A stretch of 47,188 nt of DNA from NCBI GenBank assembly GCA_002696645.1, contig NZSA01000054.1, positions 1 through 47,188 on the forward strand. The letters run 5' to 3'. This document shows, in pieces, positions 2,597 to 37,046 of the stretch. The notes under the pieces are model-generated. The model was not told the origin of the DNA and made no database searches. It saw only the letters and a list, made by a program, of their open reading frames with translations. A program made the position numbers and the translations under genes. This stretch comes from Rhodospirillales bacterium (lineage in GTDB: Bacteria > Pseudomonadota > Alphaproteobacteria > UBA8366 > Aestuariispiraceae). Every line of letters starts with the position of its first letter. Position 1 is the first letter of the stretch.

Positions 2597-3421
2597 TCAC
2601 TGCCCGGTGACGACCTGGCGGACAGCGTCCTTGAATTCGGCGCTGTCTGCCATGTCTGCCGTCAGGTTATGCGGGGACCCAGAAACTTCGGCAAAGGTGG
2701 CATCAATGCCTTTGGCTGATGCGTCCGCCGCATAGTCGCGCGACAGCCGTGACCAGGTATTGGTGTCCCGCGACCCCGTCACCAGCCGGATCATGGTTCC
2801 AGCCGGAATGCGGTCGATATAATCAAGCGGGTTTTCCGCGCGCGACAAGGGCTTGCGGTTGTTGATCTGTCGCCAGGTTGGCACATCGCAGGGGCAGCTT
2901 AACAACATCGCACGCTGCACCAGGCCAGGATGACGCCCCAAAATCACGCCGGTCATCACGGCGCCGCCGCTGTGGCCGATCATCACAACGGTATCGGCCC
3001 CATGATGGGCTTTCAGGCGCGTGGTGGCGTCGGCGATGGCGTCCATCTCGTCGGGTGTATAGATTTCTGACCGGTTTTCAGATCGACTGGCCCGCCCGGT
3101 GGAGGACCGACCACCGCCGCTATACCCGATGCGCATCATTGCGACGCCGACGGCTCCCAATTCAGAGGCTGTTTCGGCAACGGGGAAGATATAGTCGGCG
3201 GGACCGCCGCTGCTGAGATCGCCATGCAGAACCACAACCAGCGTCTTGGATTGGGCAGGCGTGCCGGGCAGGTAGGTCTGGATCGCCAGACATTCATCCC
3301 CACCCTGAACATAGTGTATCTGGTCCGCGGGCCTGCAGTCGTCATCGGATGCATTAAGATGGGAAAAATTACATAGACCTAAGAGACTGAACATGCATGT
3401 GAATATCGTTAAGTGCTTCAT
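2597..3421 (-). CDS. Secreted alpha/beta hydrolase
   Basis: The product is 274 aa with an N-terminal Sec signal peptide (MKHLTIF, hydrophobic to about residue 19, LNA cleavage near 24), so it acts in the periplasm or outside. Visible catalytic elements are the nucleophile elbow GHSGG with S151, a candidate acid D219 (GSRD) and a candidate histidine H251 (SPHN). An HGD near residue 66 fits the oxyanion region. The ATG at 3421 is preferred over an upstream ATG at 3484 because AGGA lies 8 bases before it and because it places the signal peptide at the N-terminus. The fold resembles dienelactone hydrolase or prolyl-oligopeptidase-like esterases. The substrate is not predictable. Confidence 0.8.
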   Translation of the reverse strand: MKHLTIFTCMFSLLGLCNFSHLNASDDDCRPADQIHYVQGGDECLAIQTYLPGTPAQSKTLVVVLHGDLSSGGPADYIFPVAETASELGAVGVAMMRIGYSGGGRSSTGRASRSENRSEIYTPDEMDAIADATTRLKAHHGADTVVMIGHSGGAVMTGVILGRHPGLVQRAMLLSCPCDVPTWRQINNRKPLSRAENPLDYIDRIPAGTMIRLVTGSRDTNTWSRLSRDYAADASAKGIDATFAEVSGSPHNLTADMADSAEFKDAVRQVVTGQ

Positions 3422-3553
3422 CCTCTGTGTCCTGTTTTTTTCATTATCAGGTTCAAATTTGCTTATGTCCGGTTTGGATATCAAATTTAATTGAATTTAG
3501 TTTTGGCCTGCCGATTTAAGAGTATGAATTAGAATCTTTTTTCGTGCCATAAA

Positions 3554-3583
3554 TTGTTATCAAGGCTACCTTAAGAATAATAT
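3554..3583 (+). promoter_or_regulatory. Putative promoter of the AT-rich ATPase gene
   Basis: TTGTTA at 3554-3559 and TAATAT at 3578-3583 are separated by 18 bases and lie 57 bases before the ATPase start. This resembles a housekeeping sigma-70 promoter. The surrounding sequence is AT-rich, so chance matches are common. Confidence 0.35.
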
Positions 3584-5317
3584 GATTAGAAATACAATTT
3601 GGGAAATCATACACTATATTCGAAAATTTTGGGGGAAATATGTCCAGAAAAGGAAAAACACAGAATCATTTAGCAAATAAGATTGAACTACGGCCCGGAG
3701 AAAACATCGGAAACAACTCCGCAGAGAATGATGATGAGTTTTTATTTTCGTGCTTTGTAGATCATCCAGCTCTTTCTGTAGTTGCGGATATTACTTCATC
3801 AAAGCACTTTGTATCGGCAAGAACTGGTGCAGGAAAGACTGCGATATTGAGAATGATATCTAAGAATAACACAAATGTAAGTGAGGTTGATTTACTGGAG
3901 TTATCACTTAGCTATGTCGCAAATTCTGATATTATACAGTTTCTTAGTTCGATTGGTGTTGATTTAGATTTATTTTTCCAGGTTCTTTGGAAACACATAT
4001 TCTGTATTGAATACATTAGATCAAGGTTTTCTGTCACGGATGCAAATAAGTCACGCAGTCTTTTTCGCAGAATTTTGGATACATTTGAAAGTGATGACAG
4101 GCGAAAATCGGCTCTAAAGTACTTGGCTGAATGGGAAAACAAATTCTTCATCACAATGGATGAAAATATTAAGGAGGTTACACAAAAAATAGAAAAACAA
4201 GTCGATACAAATCTTTCAGTTGATCTGGAAAAATTTAAATCAAAAGCAGGATACGCAAGGTCGTTGAGCCAGGAAAAGAAATCAGCCCTTGTCGCGCGCG
4301 CCAAGAAAATTGTCGATTCGGATCTTTTAGCGGATCTGGGAAAAGTTATGGACCTGCTTTCTACATTTGATAAAGAAGAAAAGTATAAGAAACAGAACCA
4401 CTATATATTAATTGACGGCATTGATGAAAAATGGGTTGATGAAACGATAAGGTACAAGCTCATTAGAGCATTAATTGAAAGTTTGAGGTCTTTTAGGAAG
4501 ATACAAAATCTAAAAATTATTGTGGCTATAAGAGCGGATGTTCTTGAGAGAGTAATTCAAGAGACAGATTTCTCCGGTGCTCAAAGAGAGAAGTATGATG
4601 ATTATTTCTTAAGAGTAAAATGGAATAAAGATCAAATGTTTGATCTGGTAAATAAAAGAATAAATTTTCTTTTTAGGAAGAAATACTCTTCAGAAAATGT
4701 ATATTATAGTGATATATTTGATCCAAAGGTTGGGAGTGTTGATTCTTTCTCTTATATATTGGATCGAACGTTATATAGGCCTAGAGATATAATATCTTAC
4801 CTAAATATATGCTTAAAATTGTGTGAAGGGAAAAGCAAGGTTTCCCAAACCGTTATTCGGAAGGCTGAAGAGGAGTATTCTCGAATTAGACTCCAGGCTT
4901 TAGTAGAGGAATGGAATACTGCACTACCTTATTTGCAGTTTGTTTTCAGTGCAATTAGATCTCGTGGAAATGCATTTCAAGAAAGTGACTTTTTTGACCA
5001 TACGTTTATTGACGAAATTGTTCTTTCCGTAGCCCAAGAAAATTATGAGCCTCGTGATCCGGTAAGTAAGTTGTCTAGGTCAAGTCTAACTCATGGAAAT
5101 GAAATACCTTATGAAGATATGTCAAAGCAAATCATATCGGACTTGTATCGAATTGGCGTTATCGGACTGAAGACAAATGTGAATCAAAGTTTCATTTTTT
5201 CTCATAAAGATATTGCGACGGTGCTTCCGGCCACAATATCGAAGGACACAAAGATAAGATTTCATCAAATGACGCGTATTGGATTGAACCTGTCAAACGT
5301 GAAATCGTAATATGATT
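3578..5317. repeat. 10-bp direct repeat TAATATGATT flanking ATPase gene A
   Basis: TAATATGATT occurs at 3578-3587, in the putative promoter, and again at 5308-5317, overlapping the TAA stop of the ATPase gene. The pair brackets the gene closely and could be a target-site duplication or recombination scar. The sequence is AT-rich, so chance cannot be excluded. Confidence 0.3.
3640..5310 (+). CDS. P-loop ATPase (Sll1717-like family), AT-rich solitary gene A
   Basis: A 556-aa soluble protein with a Walker A motif at residues 60-67 (ARTGAGKT) and a Walker B strand at about 255-262 (YILIDGID). A conserved sensor-like segment lies at 296-305 (AIRADVLERV) and an RPRDI motif at about 380-384. I relate it to the family labelled P-loop ATPase Sll1717 in public annotation; this is recognition, not a search. 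The region from residue 140 to 250 is charged and helical, while the C-terminal third has no motif I recognise. Codon use is very AT-rich compared with both neighbours, a sign of transfer. It stands alone and is convergent with rnpB. The start is supported by GGGGG four bases upstream. A role in defence is inference only. A second gene of the same family and the same length starts at 41621. Confidence 0.7.
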   Translation: MSRKGKTQNHLANKIELRPGENIGNNSAENDDEFLFSCFVDHPALSVVADITSSKHFVSARTGAGKTAILRMISKNNTNVSEVDLLELSLSYVANSDIIQFLSSIGVDLDLFFQVLWKHIFCIEYIRSRFSVTDANKSRSLFRRILDTFESDDRRKSALKYLAEWENKFFITMDENIKEVTQKIEKQVDTNLSVDLEKFKSKAGYARSLSQEKKSALVARAKKIVDSDLLADLGKVMDLLSTFDKEEKYKKQNHYILIDGIDEKWVDETIRYKLIRALIESLRSFRKIQNLKIIVAIRADVLERVIQETDFSGAQREKYDDYFLRVKWNKDQMFDLVNKRINFLFRKKYSSENVYYSDIFDPKVGSVDSFSYILDRTLYRPRDIISYLNICLKLCEGKSKVSQTVIRKAEEEYSRIRLQALVEEWNTALPYLQFVFSAIRSRGNAFQESDFFDHTFIDEIVLSVAQENYEPRDPVSKLSRSSLTHGNEIPYEDMSKQIISDLYRIGVIGLKTNVNQSFIFSHKDIATVLPATISKDTKIRFHQMTRIGLNLSNVKS

Positions 5318-5336
5318 TAGTGATCAATAATCAAAA

Positions 5337-5844: not shown

Positions 5845-6936
5845 ATGAACAGGGATGATCGTATGTCGGGCAAGGGATCAGGTATGGCCACAGGCGGAAC
5901 TGTGCCAGCGGCCTTAAATGTTGGCATTGTGCCCTTACCTAATTTCACGCTGAACGCCTTTGCGTCCTTTATTGATGCCCTAAGATTAGCCGCTGATGAG
6001 CGGGACCGATCGCGCCCGATCCGATGCCGCTGGGAGGTGATGTCCCATGATGGGCGCATGATCCCGGCAAGCTGTGGTGTCAGCATTACCGCGACCGGCA
6101 CATTTCTGTCCCCGGAACGCTTTGACTATGTGGTTGTGATTGGTGGATTGCTGGGCCATGACGAGGATAAGGAAGATCCTGTCCTGGACTATTTGCGCCA
6201 GGCCGCCAGCCAGGGTGTCGCATTGGTGGGAATCTGTACCGGTGTTTTTGCGATGGCGCGGGCGGGATTACTGGATGGGCGCAAGGCCTGTGTCAGTTGG
6301 TTGCATTATCAGGATATGATCGACCGCTTTGATACGGTGGAACCCGATGCCAGCCGCCTGTTCGTCGCGGATGGCAAGCGTATCACCTGTGCAGGCGGTG
6401 TCGGCGCGGCGCGTTTGGCTGCCTGGATGATCGAACGGCATCTGGGGCGGGATCTGGCGCAAAAGGCCCTGAGTATCATGATGGTGGAAAACAGCCGTGC
6501 GACGGCAACGCCGCAACCCCAGCCCCCGGTGGCCCAGTCGGTGCGCGACCCCCGCGTTGCGCGCGCAATTCTGCTTTTGGAGGAAAAGCTGTCCGATCCA
6601 CCGCGCATTGATCAATTGGCGCACACAATCGGTATTTCCAGGCGACAGTTGGAACGCGGTTTTCGCGAAGAACTGGGCATGAGCTTTGGGAACTTTTCCC
6701 GGGCATTGCGGCTGGATCATGGCCTGTGGCTGGTCCTGACAACGGACCGATCCATTCTGGATATTACACTGGAATGTGGATTTAACGGTCAGTCCCACTT
6801 TGCGACTTTGTTTCGCAAGGCCTATGGCCTGACCCCGACAGAGGCACGGGGTTTACCTTTGTTGGACCGGGATGCGCTGATGCAGTCAAAACTGCGGTTC
6901 CGCCCTAGAGTCTCAAATGATCAAAAAACACACTAG
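5845..6936 (+). CDS. GlxA-family transcriptional regulator (DJ-1/PfpI domain plus AraC-type HTH)
   Basis: The 363-aa protein has an N-terminal DJ-1/PfpI-like domain (about 25-205) with the nucleophile-elbow cysteine C131 in GICTG. A C-terminal AraC/XylS domain (about 235-340) has two helix-turn-helix units, the second around residues 305-335 with the family pattern GFxxQSHFxxxFRKxYGxTPxE. GlxA-type regulators often control catabolism of quaternary amines, arginine or related nitrogen compounds and sense a ligand through the first domain. The start is uncertain, since in-frame ATGs also occur at residues 7 and 14 and none has a strong Shine-Dalgarno. Its TAG stop is the first three bases of the palindromic element. 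No target operon is adjacent. Confidence 0.88.
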   Translation: MNRDDRMSGKGSGMATGGTVPAALNVGIVPLPNFTLNAFASFIDALRLAADERDRSRPIRCRWEVMSHDGRMIPASCGVSITATGTFLSPERFDYVVVIGGLLGHDEDKEDPVLDYLRQAASQGVALVGICTGVFAMARAGLLDGRKACVSWLHYQDMIDRFDTVEPDASRLFVADGKRITCAGGVGAARLAAWMIERHLGRDLAQKALSIMMVENSRATATPQPQPPVAQSVRDPRVARAILLLEEKLSDPPRIDQLAHTIGISRRQLERGFREELGMSFGNFSRALRLDHGLWLVLTTDRSILDITLECGFNGQSHFATLFRKAYGLTPTEARGLPLLDRDALMQSKLRFRPRVSNDQKTH

Positions 6937-7198
6937 AGCAATATCAGGTCATTCATGGTCACTCTGATGTCTTTCGGCGAGGACGATGCGAGGCACCCGC
7001 CGCAGAGCGATGCGGGGCATCGCGCAAGGCGGGTAACGCAGCAGCGGTCCGCCGAAAGTCACCGTTCCGGCCGGATGTTTTAAGGCTGGCCTGCGTCGCA
7101 GCTCTTGCCCGTAGCCCCGCTACGCGCAGCAAGCTGCTCCTAATCCAGCCTTAAAACATCTCGGTCAGAGCGACCATGAATGACCTGATATTGCTCTA
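6934..7198. repeat. 265-bp palindromic element (MITE-like) between convergent genes
   Basis: The ends are perfect 27-bp inverted repeats (6934-6960 and 7172-7198), each TA followed by GAGCAATATCAGGTCATTCA and more. Two further pairs are nested inside: CTTTCGGCG at 6971-6979 with CGCCGAAAG at 7050-7058, and GATGTTTTAAGGCTGG at 7074-7089 with its complement at 7145-7160. The whole can fold as a stem with two arms. No protein is encoded. The TA bases at both outer ends would fit a TA target duplication, as left by IS630/Tc1-type transposases, but that is inference. The left end provides the TAG stop of the GlxA-type gene and the right end that of the TIGR02302-like gene. It may also act as a two-way terminator. 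Confidence 0.8.
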
Positions 7199-9814
7199 GA
7201 ATTGATCCAGCAGCCGGTCGATATAGTCCAATTCCTCAGGCGGACGGGCGCGCTCTCCCGCGCGACGGCGTAATTCATCACGAATTTCCCGGGCTTTTTC
7301 CAGGCCGCCTTTATCAGGAACTTTCACCTGACCCTGCATGCTGCCCCGGAATGTATCACTGGCTTCGCGTCCAAAGGGGTCCATTGTCTGTTCGCCAGAC
7401 TGGCCGGGCACTTGCTGACCCATTCCCATTTGTTGTTCAAACCGTTCAATAAAGGCATTTCGCGCTGCATCGGCGGCCTCCTGCATCGCATCCAGTGCCT
7501 TGCCTTGTGACTCAACGGCTTCGCCGGGCCTGCCATCGCCCAATTGCTCAGTTGCCTCGCCCATGCCTTCATCCGCGCGGCCAAAGGGTTCTGGAATCTG
7601 CCCCATCATTTCGCCAAATTTGCGCATCACTTCACCCAATTGTCGGCGCAGGGCATCCTGCAGGACGGCATCTGCACTATCCTGCGCACGCTGTTGGTCG
7701 CCGGATTCTCCCCGCTGGCCCTGTTCAGCCTGGCCCTGGCTTTGCTGATTGCGCTGGGCCTGGTTTTGCTGTCCGGCCTGCCCCTGTTCCGGGTTGCTTT
7801 CGCCCCGGCGTTCCAGGTCGCGGCGATGGGTTCTGTCCATCAATTCGCGCTGGCTTTCCATGATATCTTTCATGGAATTCAGCATTTCCATGGCTTGCTG
7901 ATTCTGCGGGGACATTTGCTGCTGCATCCCTGCTTGCATGTTTTCCATCATATTACGCAGCTGTTCCAGCATCTGCTGGGCGCTTTCGGTCATGCCATTC
8001 TGCATCATGTCGCGCAATTGCTGCATCATGTCTTCAAGGTCGCGCTGAGAAATGACATTTTCGCCGGGGGCCATTTCGGGGGGCTGTTCACCCTCGGCAA
8101 GGTTCTGGCGCATCTGGTCTGCCATGGCCTGCATGTAATCCTGCATGGCCTGCTGCAGTTCATCCATCAATTGGTCCAGTTCGGCCGCATCGGCGCCATT
8201 CTGGAGGGCGTCCATCAGGGCCTGTTGTGCCTCACGCAAGCGCTGCAGGGCCAGGGATACGCCACCATCTTCCAGATACAGCGCCGTTTTCCATAATAAT
8301 TCGATCACAGACGCAATGGCCTGTGGCTCAGGGGCGGCACCGGTGCGGCGATGGGGCGTCAGGGCGCGCACTGCCTGACGCAGCGCCATGAAAACCGTAA
8401 CCTTGTCATCAAATGTGTTATGTTCCCACGACAAGGCATCCAGCGCGTCTGAAACGGCCCGATAATTTTGTATCGGATTCCAGGCCAGTTCACGCCGCAA
8501 GTCGATAATGATCTTAGCCACTGGGTGGTTGAACTCCCGCGCGGGCAGGATCAAGGTCACGGGCTCGGATCGACCCTCCTGGCCCAGGGCGTCGGTTGCC
8601 ACCAGGGTCAGGCGCACTTCTCCGCCGGCCCAGGGATGGGCGGTATAGTCCCGGTAGGCGCGGCGTTTGGTGCCGTATTTGCTGGGGTCCGGGACGGGCA
8701 GTTGGGTGATGATCTTCATTTCCTCATTCCCCTGAGCACTGCTTTGCGCAGAGCCCGCAAGCCTGTCCGCGCGCTCTATCTCCGCCCTTAAGGAGAGAAC
8801 GCCAAAGTCATCGCTGACCGTATGGGTGATGGTCAGGGCGCGCTGAACACTGGCAATCGGGGGTTCTGGCAGGGTGACAACGGGGGGCGCATCCGGCACG
8901 GCGCGAATTTCCCAGGAGGCAACGGTTTCACCCTCAGACTGAATGGAAAATGTGCCGGACTTTAGAATTTCATGCTCCAGCGCCACGGCATTCTGGGCAA
9001 ATTGCGCCATTGGTTTTGGACCCTGCGGCGTTATCAGGGTCGCCCCGTCCGGGACGCCGCTGACCTGAACCACCAGGCGGGACCCGACCGGGGTGCTGTG
9101 TTCATCGCCCTGCATTGCTGTTGGGATCGTATCGGTCGTGTCAGGCGATTGTTTCTTGCTGCTGGACATAAAAAGCGGGGGCAGACCGGTATAGTCCGGC
9201 GGCGTCAGCCAGGCATCAATGCCAACCGTCAAGGTCGGTCCGCTGGTGCCGATATTGGGGACCAGTGCAGTCCGCAGGCGCTGAATACTCTCCCCGCCCG
9301 CAGCGATCAGCGCGATGATCAGGAAGAATGGCGCAATCAGGCGCAGGGCGCGGGGATCGCGCCGTGCCAATTGGGGATCCGGGGCGCCCACCGACAAGCT
9401 GCCGATTCGTTGACGCAGGCGCGCCTGATGCGCCTGCCACAGGGCCAGTTGAATTGGATTATCGCTGCTGGGACGATCCGCCAGACTTTCCAGTGGGCGG
9501 TGATCCAGTTTGTTGACCCGTTCGACCCGACGACGCGCGGCTTCATACCGGGGCAGGTGAAACCGTCGATAGCCCTGAACCATCAGGCCAGCGAAAAGGA
9601 TGGCCGATACTGCCAGGACGGTCGCATGCAGCCAGGGAGCAAGGTCTGGCAGAAGTCCGGTGATTGCGATGGCAAGAAACAGGATCAGGACGCTGACAGG
9701 TTTCCAGAAGGCAACTTCCAGCGCCTCCCAGATCAAAACCGCGCGGGAGAGACCGATGGGCATTTCCATACCCGTCGCGTCTTTTTGGCCCCCCCGAGCC
9801 GAGTGATCTGTCAT
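7196..9814 (-). CDS. TIGR02302-like membrane protein (DUF4175 family)
   Basis: An 872-aa alphaproteobacterial protein found downstream of lysA. I recognise it as the TIGR02302/DUF4175 type. It has hydrophobic segments near residues 35-75, a third near 160, a central region with beta-rich extracytoplasmic character, and a long Gln/Met/Glu-rich coiled-coil-like part (about 550-790). The C-terminus is basic and helical. The function is not established. The ATG at 9814 is chosen because GGAG lies 7 bases upstream and because it leaves 17 bases after the lysA stop. A longer frame starting at 9868 would overlap lysA. It probably forms an operon with argH, the lipoprotein gene and lysA. Its TAG stop is formed by the palindromic element. 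Confidence 0.82.
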   Translation of the reverse strand: MTDHSARGGQKDATGMEMPIGLSRAVLIWEALEVAFWKPVSVLILFLAIAITGLLPDLAPWLHATVLAVSAILFAGLMVQGYRRFHLPRYEAARRRVERVNKLDHRPLESLADRPSSDNPIQLALWQAHQARLRQRIGSLSVGAPDPQLARRDPRALRLIAPFFLIIALIAAGGESIQRLRTALVPNIGTSGPTLTVGIDAWLTPPDYTGLPPLFMSSSKKQSPDTTDTIPTAMQGDEHSTPVGSRLVVQVSGVPDGATLITPQGPKPMAQFAQNAVALEHEILKSGTFSIQSEGETVASWEIRAVPDAPPVVTLPEPPIASVQRALTITHTVSDDFGVLSLRAEIERADRLAGSAQSSAQGNEEMKIITQLPVPDPSKYGTKRRAYRDYTAHPWAGGEVRLTLVATDALGQEGRSEPVTLILPAREFNHPVAKIIIDLRRELAWNPIQNYRAVSDALDALSWEHNTFDDKVTVFMALRQAVRALTPHRRTGAAPEPQAIASVIELLWKTALYLEDGGVSLALQRLREAQQALMDALQNGADAAELDQLMDELQQAMQDYMQAMADQMRQNLAEGEQPPEMAPGENVISQRDLEDMMQQLRDMMQNGMTESAQQMLEQLRNMMENMQAGMQQQMSPQNQQAMEMLNSMKDIMESQRELMDRTHRRDLERRGESNPEQGQAGQQNQAQRNQQSQGQAEQGQRGESGDQQRAQDSADAVLQDALRRQLGEVMRKFGEMMGQIPEPFGRADEGMGEATEQLGDGRPGEAVESQGKALDAMQEAADAARNAFIERFEQQMGMGQQVPGQSGEQTMDPFGREASDTFRGSMQGQVKVPDKGGLEKAREIRDELRRRAGERARPPEELDYIDRLLDQF

Positions 9815-9831
9815 CCTGTCGCTCCAATCCT

Positions 9832-11124
9832 TTAAGCGGCGTGATCCTTTGAACCAGTCTGTAACCAATCTGGAATTCTGTCCATGCCGATCAACTCTTC
9901 ATAGGTCTGCCGAGGCCGGATCACAGCATAGTGATCGCCATCGATCAAAACCTCTGGGACCAGCAACCTTGTATTATAGGTCGATGCCATCACGGCGCCA
10001 TAGGCCCCTGCCGTCCCGAATGCGACCAGATCCCCTTCTTCTATCAAGGGCAGCATGCGGTCTTTGGCAAAGGTATCGCCGGATTCGCAAACTGGTCCTA
10101 CAACGTCAACCGGCATCAGCGGCGCATCCGCACCTGGTTGTTTGACGGGGCGCAAACCATGGTGACCATTGTACAGGGCAGGGCGGATCAGGTCATTCAT
10201 GGCCGCATCCAGGATCAGGAAGCGCTTCGCCTCGCCGGGCTTCACGACCAAGGCCCGCGACAGCAATATCCCGGCATTACCGACGATCATGCGTCCCGGT
10301 TCCAGCATCACCTGACAGTTCAAATGCGCGATTTCTTCTGCGGCCATTTTCGCATAGGCATCCGGCAGGGGCGGGTTTTCCGCGTCGTAAGGGATGCCCA
10401 GGCCACCGCCCAGATCAACGCGGGTGATTTTGTGCCCCAGGCTTCGCAGCCGCTCAACCAATTGAGCGACCCGGCGAAACGCCTGACGATAGGGATCCAG
10501 ATCGGTCAACTGGCTGCCGATATGGACAGCAACCGTGACTGGGGCAAGGCCTGGAAGAGAAGCAGCCAGTGCATAAATTTCCTCGGCACGGTCAATATCA
10601 ATGCCGAATTTATTTTCCTTTCGGCCGGTCGAAATCTTCTCATGGGTTTTGGCGTCAACGTCCGGATTGACCCGAACAGCGATTTCCGCCGTCACATTCA
10701 TGCTGGCGGCGATCCGCGATAACAGCCTGATTTCACTTTCGGATTCCACATTTATTTCATGAATTCCGGTTTCCAGGGCAAACCGAAGCTCACTTTCGCT
10801 TTTGCCAACGCCGGAAAAGACGATGCGGTCCGGGGGGATTCCAGCAGCCAGGGCACGGCGCAATTCCCCTTCGGATACGACATCCGCCCCCGCACCCAAT
10901 TGACCCAATAAGGCTATTACCGCCAGATTGCTGTTCGCCTTGACGGCATAACATATCTTGGCATCTAGACCAGCGGCGCGAAATGCGTCGGCAAAGACCG
11001 TATAGTGGCGGGTCAATGTTGCCCGGGAATAGACATAGACGGGGGTTCCGACCTCTTGCGCGATCTGCGTCAGGGGCACATTTTCAGCGCATAAAACCCC
11101 ATTGTGATACTCAAAATGGTTCAT
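9832..11124 (-). CDS. lysA: Diaminopimelate decarboxylase
   Basis: LysA converts meso-diaminopimelate to L-lysine, the last step of lysine synthesis, in the cytoplasm with PLP. The 430-aa length is normal. The N-terminal alanine-racemase-like barrel carries the PLP lysine K62 in YAVKANSN. The glycine-rich phosphate-binding segment DLGGGLGIP lies near residue 240 and the substrate-binding CESGDTF near 355. It lies in the order argH - lipoprotein - lysA - TIGR02302, a common alphaproteobacterial arrangement, and is likely co-transcribed with these genes. Confidence 0.96.
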   Translation of the reverse strand: MNHFEYHNGVLCAENVPLTQIAQEVGTPVYVYSRATLTRHYTVFADAFRAAGLDAKICYAVKANSNLAVIALLGQLGAGADVVSEGELRRALAAGIPPDRIVFSGVGKSESELRFALETGIHEINVESESEIRLLSRIAASMNVTAEIAVRVNPDVDAKTHEKISTGRKENKFGIDIDRAEEIYALAASLPGLAPVTVAVHIGSQLTDLDPYRQAFRRVAQLVERLRSLGHKITRVDLGGGLGIPYDAENPPLPDAYAKMAAEEIAHLNCQVMLEPGRMIVGNAGILLSRALVVKPGEAKRFLILDAAMNDLIRPALYNGHHGLRPVKQPGADAPLMPVDVVGPVCESGDTFAKDRMLPLIEEGDLVAFGTAGAYGAVMASTYNTRLLVPEVLIDGDHYAVIRPRQTYEELIGMDRIPDWLQTGSKDHAA

Positions 11125-36896: not shown

Positions 36897-36965
36897 GCGA
36901 TATTTACAGCGGGCCCGCCCTTCAAGACGAAACGCTTCTCAGGGAGAGGGTGCCTATGTCGTCGT

Positions 36966-37046
36966 CACCCCGGACTTGATCCGGGGTCCAGGGCGGCAGG
37001 CACGATGGGCGTGGGTGGCCCTGGGCTGTCGCCTGCGCGGGAGCGA
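36966..37046. repeat. Dispersed palindromic repeat (alphaproteobacterial REP-like)
   Basis: CCCCGGA at 36968-36974 pairs with TCCGGGG at 36980-36986. CCAGGGC at 36988-36994 pairs with GCCCTGG at 37018-37024. GTCGC at 37028-37032 pairs with GCGAC at 37042-37046. The wording (CCCGGACTTGATCCGGGG then TCCAGGG) is that of an intergenic repeat I know from many alphaproteobacterial genomes. It lies between the small basic protein gene and the 3' end of pdxJ and would also fold as RNA from either strand. Confidence 0.75.

Follow-up and report, generated by a model that had tools for sequence, protein, structure and literature searches.

A palindromic IS630-type MITE candidate that appears to rebuild TAG stop codons at the ends of two convergent genes

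How does a small palindrome come to carry the stop codons of both genes that face it? In the 47,188-nt contig analysed here (from a Rhodospirillales bacterium, hereinafter the window), two genes converge on such an element. The gene on the plus strand (5845–6936) encodes a GlxA/FtrA-like AraC-type regulator with a DJ-1/PfpI domain (NCBIfam matches under cut-offs), and the gene on the minus strand (7196–9868) encodes a TIGR02302/DUF4175 family protein (TIGR02302 over cut-off). Specifically, G6936 completes a left TA to TAG, the stop of the GlxA-like gene, while C7196, a G on the minus strand, completes a right TA to TAG, the stop of the TIGR02302-family gene. The preliminary description reported 27-bp perfect terminal inverted repeats opening with TAG and assigned these TAGs as the two stops; both observations are confirmed, with the stops at 6934–6936 and 7196–7198. 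It further proposed that insertion at TA had re-ended two genes at once. Hereinafter, the source genome, its sister species and a further relative are designated G000, G005 and G002, respectively, contigs are designated C, and sequence records L.

The whole element, together with a flanking C and G, spans 6933–7199, as defined by its inverted repeats, its fold and the empty sites in G005 and G002. An inverted-repeat search places the left terminal repeat at 6933–6967 (plus) and the right one at 7165–7199 (minus). These arms are 35 nt long and differ by one mismatch; their first 28 nt are perfect, which equals 27 nt counted from the TAG. With up to three mismatches permitted, the terminal 27-mer gives two matches, both exact, and none in 100 shuffles. 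The mobile core, GAGC...GCTC, occupies 6936–7196. The TAs on its two sides (6934–6935 and 7197–7198) are interpreted as the two copies of a target duplication, consistent with the TA duplication seen at other sites. The element strand folds with a z-score of −16.2 (0 of 200 shuffles as good) into an outer stem and two inner arms, namely a G+C-rich hairpin at 6968–7061 and a second arm at 7074–7160. Fold and alignment indicate compensatory changes in related elements for both inner arms. The list of open reading frames contains none of at least 100 aa inside the 267-bp element, and no Rfam family matches it. When eight loci with related elements were compared with Rfam, only two matches appeared up to E 0.05, both to animal-type miRNA families and far under the gathering scores.

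The source genome contains few copies. Other than the window, there is one copy that apparently straddles the ends of C30 and C68, with its middle unassembled, and there are degraded pieces on C23, C65 and C26; a match on C15 is the window locus again on an overlapping contig. A degenerate pattern of the ends gives eight matches in this genome and its reversed control none, so a high copy number was not found there. Among 59 genomes searched, the source genome included, matches occur in four relatives, and a full near-identical copy exists only in G005. This copy, on C7, is 267 bp long with one mismatch and lies at a different location from that of the window. A 21-base pattern scanned against about 85,000 species genomes hits only two stretches, in the sister MAG and in one Scytonema (a cyanobacterium), the latter probably by chance, and hits none in viral contigs; both collections may leave out records close to the window's own.

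Comparison of G000 and G005 indicates mobility. The window site is empty in G005 C12 and G002 C199, and the flanks of the C30 and C68 copy adjoin in G005 C11 with no element between them. Conversely, G000 C78 lacks the element where G005 C7 carries its copy. Neither G005 nor G002 has the C23, C65 and C26 pieces at the corresponding positions. In total, six sites with the element or pieces of it were examined in G000 and G005, and each is occupied in just one of the two genomes. The element has terminal inverted repeats, no transposase gene, a duplicated TA target, and filled and empty sites, which are features of a MITE; the empty sites support both the MITE nature and the insertion at TA that the preliminary description had suggested.

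Several further features of the locus and the genomes were observed. The last 7 kb of C15 overlap the window at 99.93% identity over 6967 bp and then continue into the element in the opposite orientation (L062 19902–20000), which reflects either a genuine strain-level inversion or an assembly artefact caused by the arms. G005 lacks, at the corresponding position, an A+T-rich islet that occupies 3353–5324 of the window (G+C content 34.8%, compared with 54.3% for the whole window); this islet carries a Sll1717-family P-loop ATPase (NF047389) and adjoins the RNase P RNA gene. A 35-bp sequence at 36964–36998 recurs in C15 and G005 C12. A separate repeat of about 106 bp (L014 366–471) has dozens of matches listed in G000 and G005 and fewer in G002, and is far commoner than the palindromic element.

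The element belongs to a family whose members are about 270 bp long, and relatives were identified in nine other alphaproteobacterial sources. Related elements of the same layout are present in order- and class-level relatives (G018 and G043) and on plasmids of Thalassospira, Terrarubrum, Sinorhizobium, Rhizobium, Pararhizobium, Aminobacter and Phyllobacterium. The window element itself has no match among the plasmid records at E 0.01, and these relatives are reached only via the G018 and G043 elements; a query with L015 against the plasmid records also returned nothing. One rhizobial query matches 518 places in 203 plasmid records, some of them over partial length. The abundance considered in the preliminary description applies to related elements on Rhizobium plasmids; the copy number in the source genome is low. 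In the openly accessible literature, the family was not recognised among the listed titles, abstract openings and article text that were examined.

The filled and empty sites define the target. At a Rhizobium LysR gene, C-TA-G in the empty records L150 and L151 corresponds to C-TA-[GAGC...GCTC]-TA-G in the filled one. The empty site at a Rhizobium LacI gene (L149) has the same pattern. At both genes the filled and empty records differ by the element plus one TA, and the empty site contains a native TAG within CTAG, which the first G of the element restores after the TA duplication. Seventeen of the 29 element rows are flanked by CTAG on both sides, or 16 of 27 when two repeated insertions are merged (Rj_X1 with Rj_GT, and Rl_fuc with Rl_IS110, which have a common right flank), against a background of 51 CTAG per 2905 TA in 101 kb of this genus (G000 and G005). 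The remaining 12 rows are flanked by TTA, have mixed flanks or have a mutated TA. Two sites of this genus stand outside the 29-row count. The C30/C68 site has a TA/TA duplication with flanks C-TA..TA-A, and the G005 C7 site has TTA instead of TA on both sides, together with one base of indel. The end is TAAAGC at C23, C65 and Thalassospira marina L128, with A in place of the terminal G and hence a TAA stop. A tandem at the G005 empty site resembles the element end, probably by chance.

The TA duplication, the CTAG preference and the GAGC...GCTC ends make the element look like an IS630-type MITE. IS630 reportedly prefers TA in 5'-CTAG-3', a preference attributed to Tenzen and Ohtsubo in 1991. 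The source genome contains a resident insertion sequence (L100, on G000 C76) with ends TA-GAGC...TTAGACGG. It is split into two separate reading frames; PF13358 and PF01710 score over the cut-off, and the NCBIfam IS630 model scores under the cut-off for each fragment. TA-GAGC is present in nearly all element rows, and TTAGAnnGAA is present in the resident IS630-type copy and in several related elements. The match is partial: the arm of the window element resembles the resident copy only in TA-GAGC and in layout. DDE_3 (PF13358) was found in two of five genomes searched, G000 and G005, and not in G002, G018 or G043, of which G018 and G043 hold several related elements. ISY100, an IS630-family insertion sequence, inserts almost only at TA and duplicates it, according to the available text of PMC2170065; unlike the window element, it is autonomous and has its own transposase.

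An IS5/IS1031-type origin had been suggested by the GAGC ends. Elements of this type have TNA targets. This origin was dropped: the empty sites gave TA, and the resident insertion sequence with such ends is IS630-like. As a separate observation, a 3231-bp stretch with the frame-split IS630-type copy is 100% identical between L100 (G000 C76) and L099 (G005 C7), whereas G000 and G005 are 90–95% identical at the window locus. The identity of this stretch reflects either recent transfer or shared contamination.

We compared the ends of the neighbouring genes with those of element-free relatives. The C-terminus of the TIGR02302-family protein, ...DRLLDQF*, falls at the same residue in G000, in element-free G005 (also TAG) and in element-free G002 (TAA). 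In ten further genomes of the family in which this end was translated, the stop lies within one residue of the LDQF* point (the G009 orthologue, a two-part match, was left out). The C-terminus of the GlxA-like protein reads KTH* in G000, KTHWTQ* in G005 and KYQWAG* in G002, and is three residues shorter in G000 than in G005; four more orthologues were examined, but their C-termini have diverged too far to be compared. The simultaneous re-ending of two genes is thus not supported, given the TIGR02302-family end, and a C-terminus unlike that of the relatives is seen in the GlxA-like protein only.

Gene ends at other sites were compared likewise. The gene ends at C23 (VV*, TAA) and C26 (SGS*) are identical in G000, G005 and G002. 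The gene end at C65 is FTR* in G000 and FTSQG* in G005, a difference of two residues, and G002 is unlike both. The Rhizobium LysR protein ends in EDWAL* in the filled L134 and in the empty L150 and L151. The Rhizobium LacI protein ends in APPRS* in the filled L141 and the empty L149, and in APPR* in L152, which has no TA there and stops one residue earlier. In total, five of seven gene ends are unchanged relative to at least one element-free relative, and two differ by two to three residues.

These two ends bear on the possibility that insertion truly re-ended genes, with the element landing upstream of the old stops and a terminal or internal stop of the element replacing them. Consistent with such an event, the three residues are missing from the GlxA-like protein, about 37 nt present in G005 are missing from the G000 flank of the window site, where a clean CTAG ancestor was not seen, and C65 reads FTR* in place of FTSQG*. 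In a third case, L135, a gene annotated as dienelactone hydrolase runs on into the element in a different frame and meets its stop 19 nt past the boundary, so that its last residues and its stop are element-derived. However, TA is needed as the target, and in both changed cases of the source genome a single transition (TGG or CAG to TAG) could give the stop and the TA target together. For the GlxA-like protein, a TGG-to-TAG change before insertion would explain the shortening as well as the insertion itself; we infer the order of these events at both sites. Together with the unchanged TIGR02302-family, C23, C26, LacI and LysR ends, this makes re-ending an unlikely general explanation. The view of the element as a source of new gene ends consequently fails as a rule and perhaps applies at single sites such as L135.

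Do the ends of the element meet stops more often than expected from the background? In this genus, the element end lies on a neighbour's stop at four of six sites (window, C23, C65 and C26); at C30/C68 and G005 C7, no open reading frame of at least 60 aa ends there. Among annotated plasmid sites taken irrespective of annotation (L128, L129, L132, L133 and L145–L148), four of eight touch a stop, and at L129 the stop is formed entirely by the TTA duplication. Because the gene tables of the plasmids are incomplete, sites scored as off a stop may adjoin uncounted genes. Combined, 8 of 14 sites have an end on a stop, compared with 5 of 24 CTAG that are non-coding or at a stop (P 0.003) and 62 of 648 such TA (P 1e-5); the background was taken from 101 kb of a single genus (G000 and G005) and relies on simple gene calls. 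The excess of element ends at stop codons is suggestive only. Both ends lie on stops at three sites, namely the window, Thalassospira marina L128 and Phyllobacterium L145.

Further cases were kept out of the count of 14. Rhizobial ends lie on stops at L134, L137, L139, L141 and L153–L157 (scored by script) and at L142 and L143 (annotated stop position next to the end sequence), and these records were partly chosen for gene overlap. Among the unannotated G018 and G043 elements, the right ends supply the stops of a 158-codon open frame in G018a and a 267-codon one in G018b; all remaining ends terminate shorter frames or none, and two left ends have no stop.

Another alternative is chance, namely that the short gap between the convergent genes received the element by accident and both TAGs are incidental. 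TA followed by G gives TAG automatically, so that most such elements carry TAG, and the source genome has few copies, which fits a coincidence. The excess over both CTAG and TA argues against it, even with crude gene calls and a one-genus background, and chance is the least probable of the explanations considered, a very improbable one.

The three-armed fold of the family is conserved. In an alignment of seven sequences, 51 of 103 pairs are changed on both sides (shuffle mean 26.4) and 93.1% of the alignment cells are paired, and the signal is lost once the partners are shifted; the fold was predicted from this same alignment, which favours the result, and the sequences are few, with L004 a half-element. 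The changes on both sides comprise 20 of 32 pairs in the outer stem and 31 of 71 pairs in the inner arms. Covariation in the outer stem is expected, since binding of both ends by one transposase would require a symmetrical stem. Covariation of the inner pairs is not expected from end symmetry. The inner arms might thus be selected in their own right, with the fold as a working part (as cruciform DNA in transposition or as RNA at 3' ends), with terminal repeats that vary between lineages and a family drawn to or kept at stops; we regard this model as tentative and, on balance, doubtful.

The inner arms are also relevant to a possible domestication of the element as a bidirectional transcription terminator or RNA-processing hairpin that would be useful at convergent gene ends. 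The compensatory changes in the inner pairs are compatible with this role, as are the stops touched in the genus (4/6) and at annotated plasmid sites (4/8). A domesticated element does not fit the six G000/G005 sites, each occupied in only one of the two genomes, or the two genus sites away from the stop of any open reading frame of at least 60 aa (C30/C68 and G005 C7), and a terminator scan gave 1 match against 0.5 in shuffles. We therefore consider domestication improbable, marginally more so than re-ending.

Small palindromes of other bacteria provide comparisons, drawn here from the available text of the cited articles. RUP of Streptococcus pneumoniae, for which IS630-Spn1 is the proposed mover, is over-represented between convergent genes (PMC2229807, PMC3049150). 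Similar to the window element, it is a small non-coding palindrome with TA ends, and its ends resemble a resident IS630-family insertion sequence. However, RUP is 107 bp long with a 9 bp terminal repeat (table in PMC2229807) in a host of another phylum, whereas the element here is about 270 bp long with 34–35-nt repeats and two conserved inner arms. Thus, the window element is not RUP, but it may, by analogy, work in a RUP-like way. For BOX of S. pneumoniae, 36 annotated genes end in the element with an element-encoded stop, and alignments gave no strong evidence of truncation (PMC3049150), which is much the same conclusion on gene ends as reached here. BOX is set apart, by description, by its modular boxA/boxB/boxC structure and proposed ISSpn2 link, and in that text its stop is not described as rebuilt by target duplication. 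Correia/NEMIS of Neisseria is likewise a MITE with TA ends, a long terminal repeat, tabulated as 24 bp, and an RNA hairpin (PMC2229807); it differs in its host and in a proposed RNase III role (PMC2229807), and was compared by description, not by sequence. MITEPye1 of Paracoccus yeei is also an alphaproteobacterial, low-copy intergenic MITE with a long stem-loop, but its ends are reported to match IS1182-family elements (PMC11578231).

Taken together, the element is probably a non-autonomous IS630-type MITE that was moved in trans into CTAG, rebuilding TAG stops through near-neutral insertions. A transposase supplied in trans would move GAGC...GCTC into TA, preferably within CTAG, and duplicate the TA. 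Because the element starts with G and ends with C, CTAG would be rebuilt on both sides. A TAG stop within the target would be regenerated irrespective of its strand, and where two convergent TAG stops share a single CTAG, neither would be lost. Since the stops would be regenerated and the proteins would keep their ends, the insertions would be close to neutral and would therefore persist. The identity of the transposase, the neutrality and the shared-CTAG ancestor at the window locus are parts of this scheme that we infer. Several results weigh against the scheme: PF13358 was not found in G002, G018 or G043, the resident IS630-type copy is frame-split and matches the window arm only partially, the G005 C7 copy is flanked by TTA, the window flank lacks the 37 nt or so seen in G005, two of seven gene ends differ, LacI in L152 stops one residue early, three sites have TAA stops, the L135 gene ends within the element, and 12 of 29 rows do not have CTAG on both sides.

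The element seems to be a harmless passenger rather than a generator of new gene ends, and gene ends supplied by such elements may usually be native. TA duplication followed by a terminal G regenerates TAG, which offers a letter-level reason why palindromes can supply annotated stops harmlessly. Rhizobium plasmids offer natural pairs of filled and empty sites for tests. The results point to a widespread family of alphaproteobacterial elements with a fold conserved beyond its ends.
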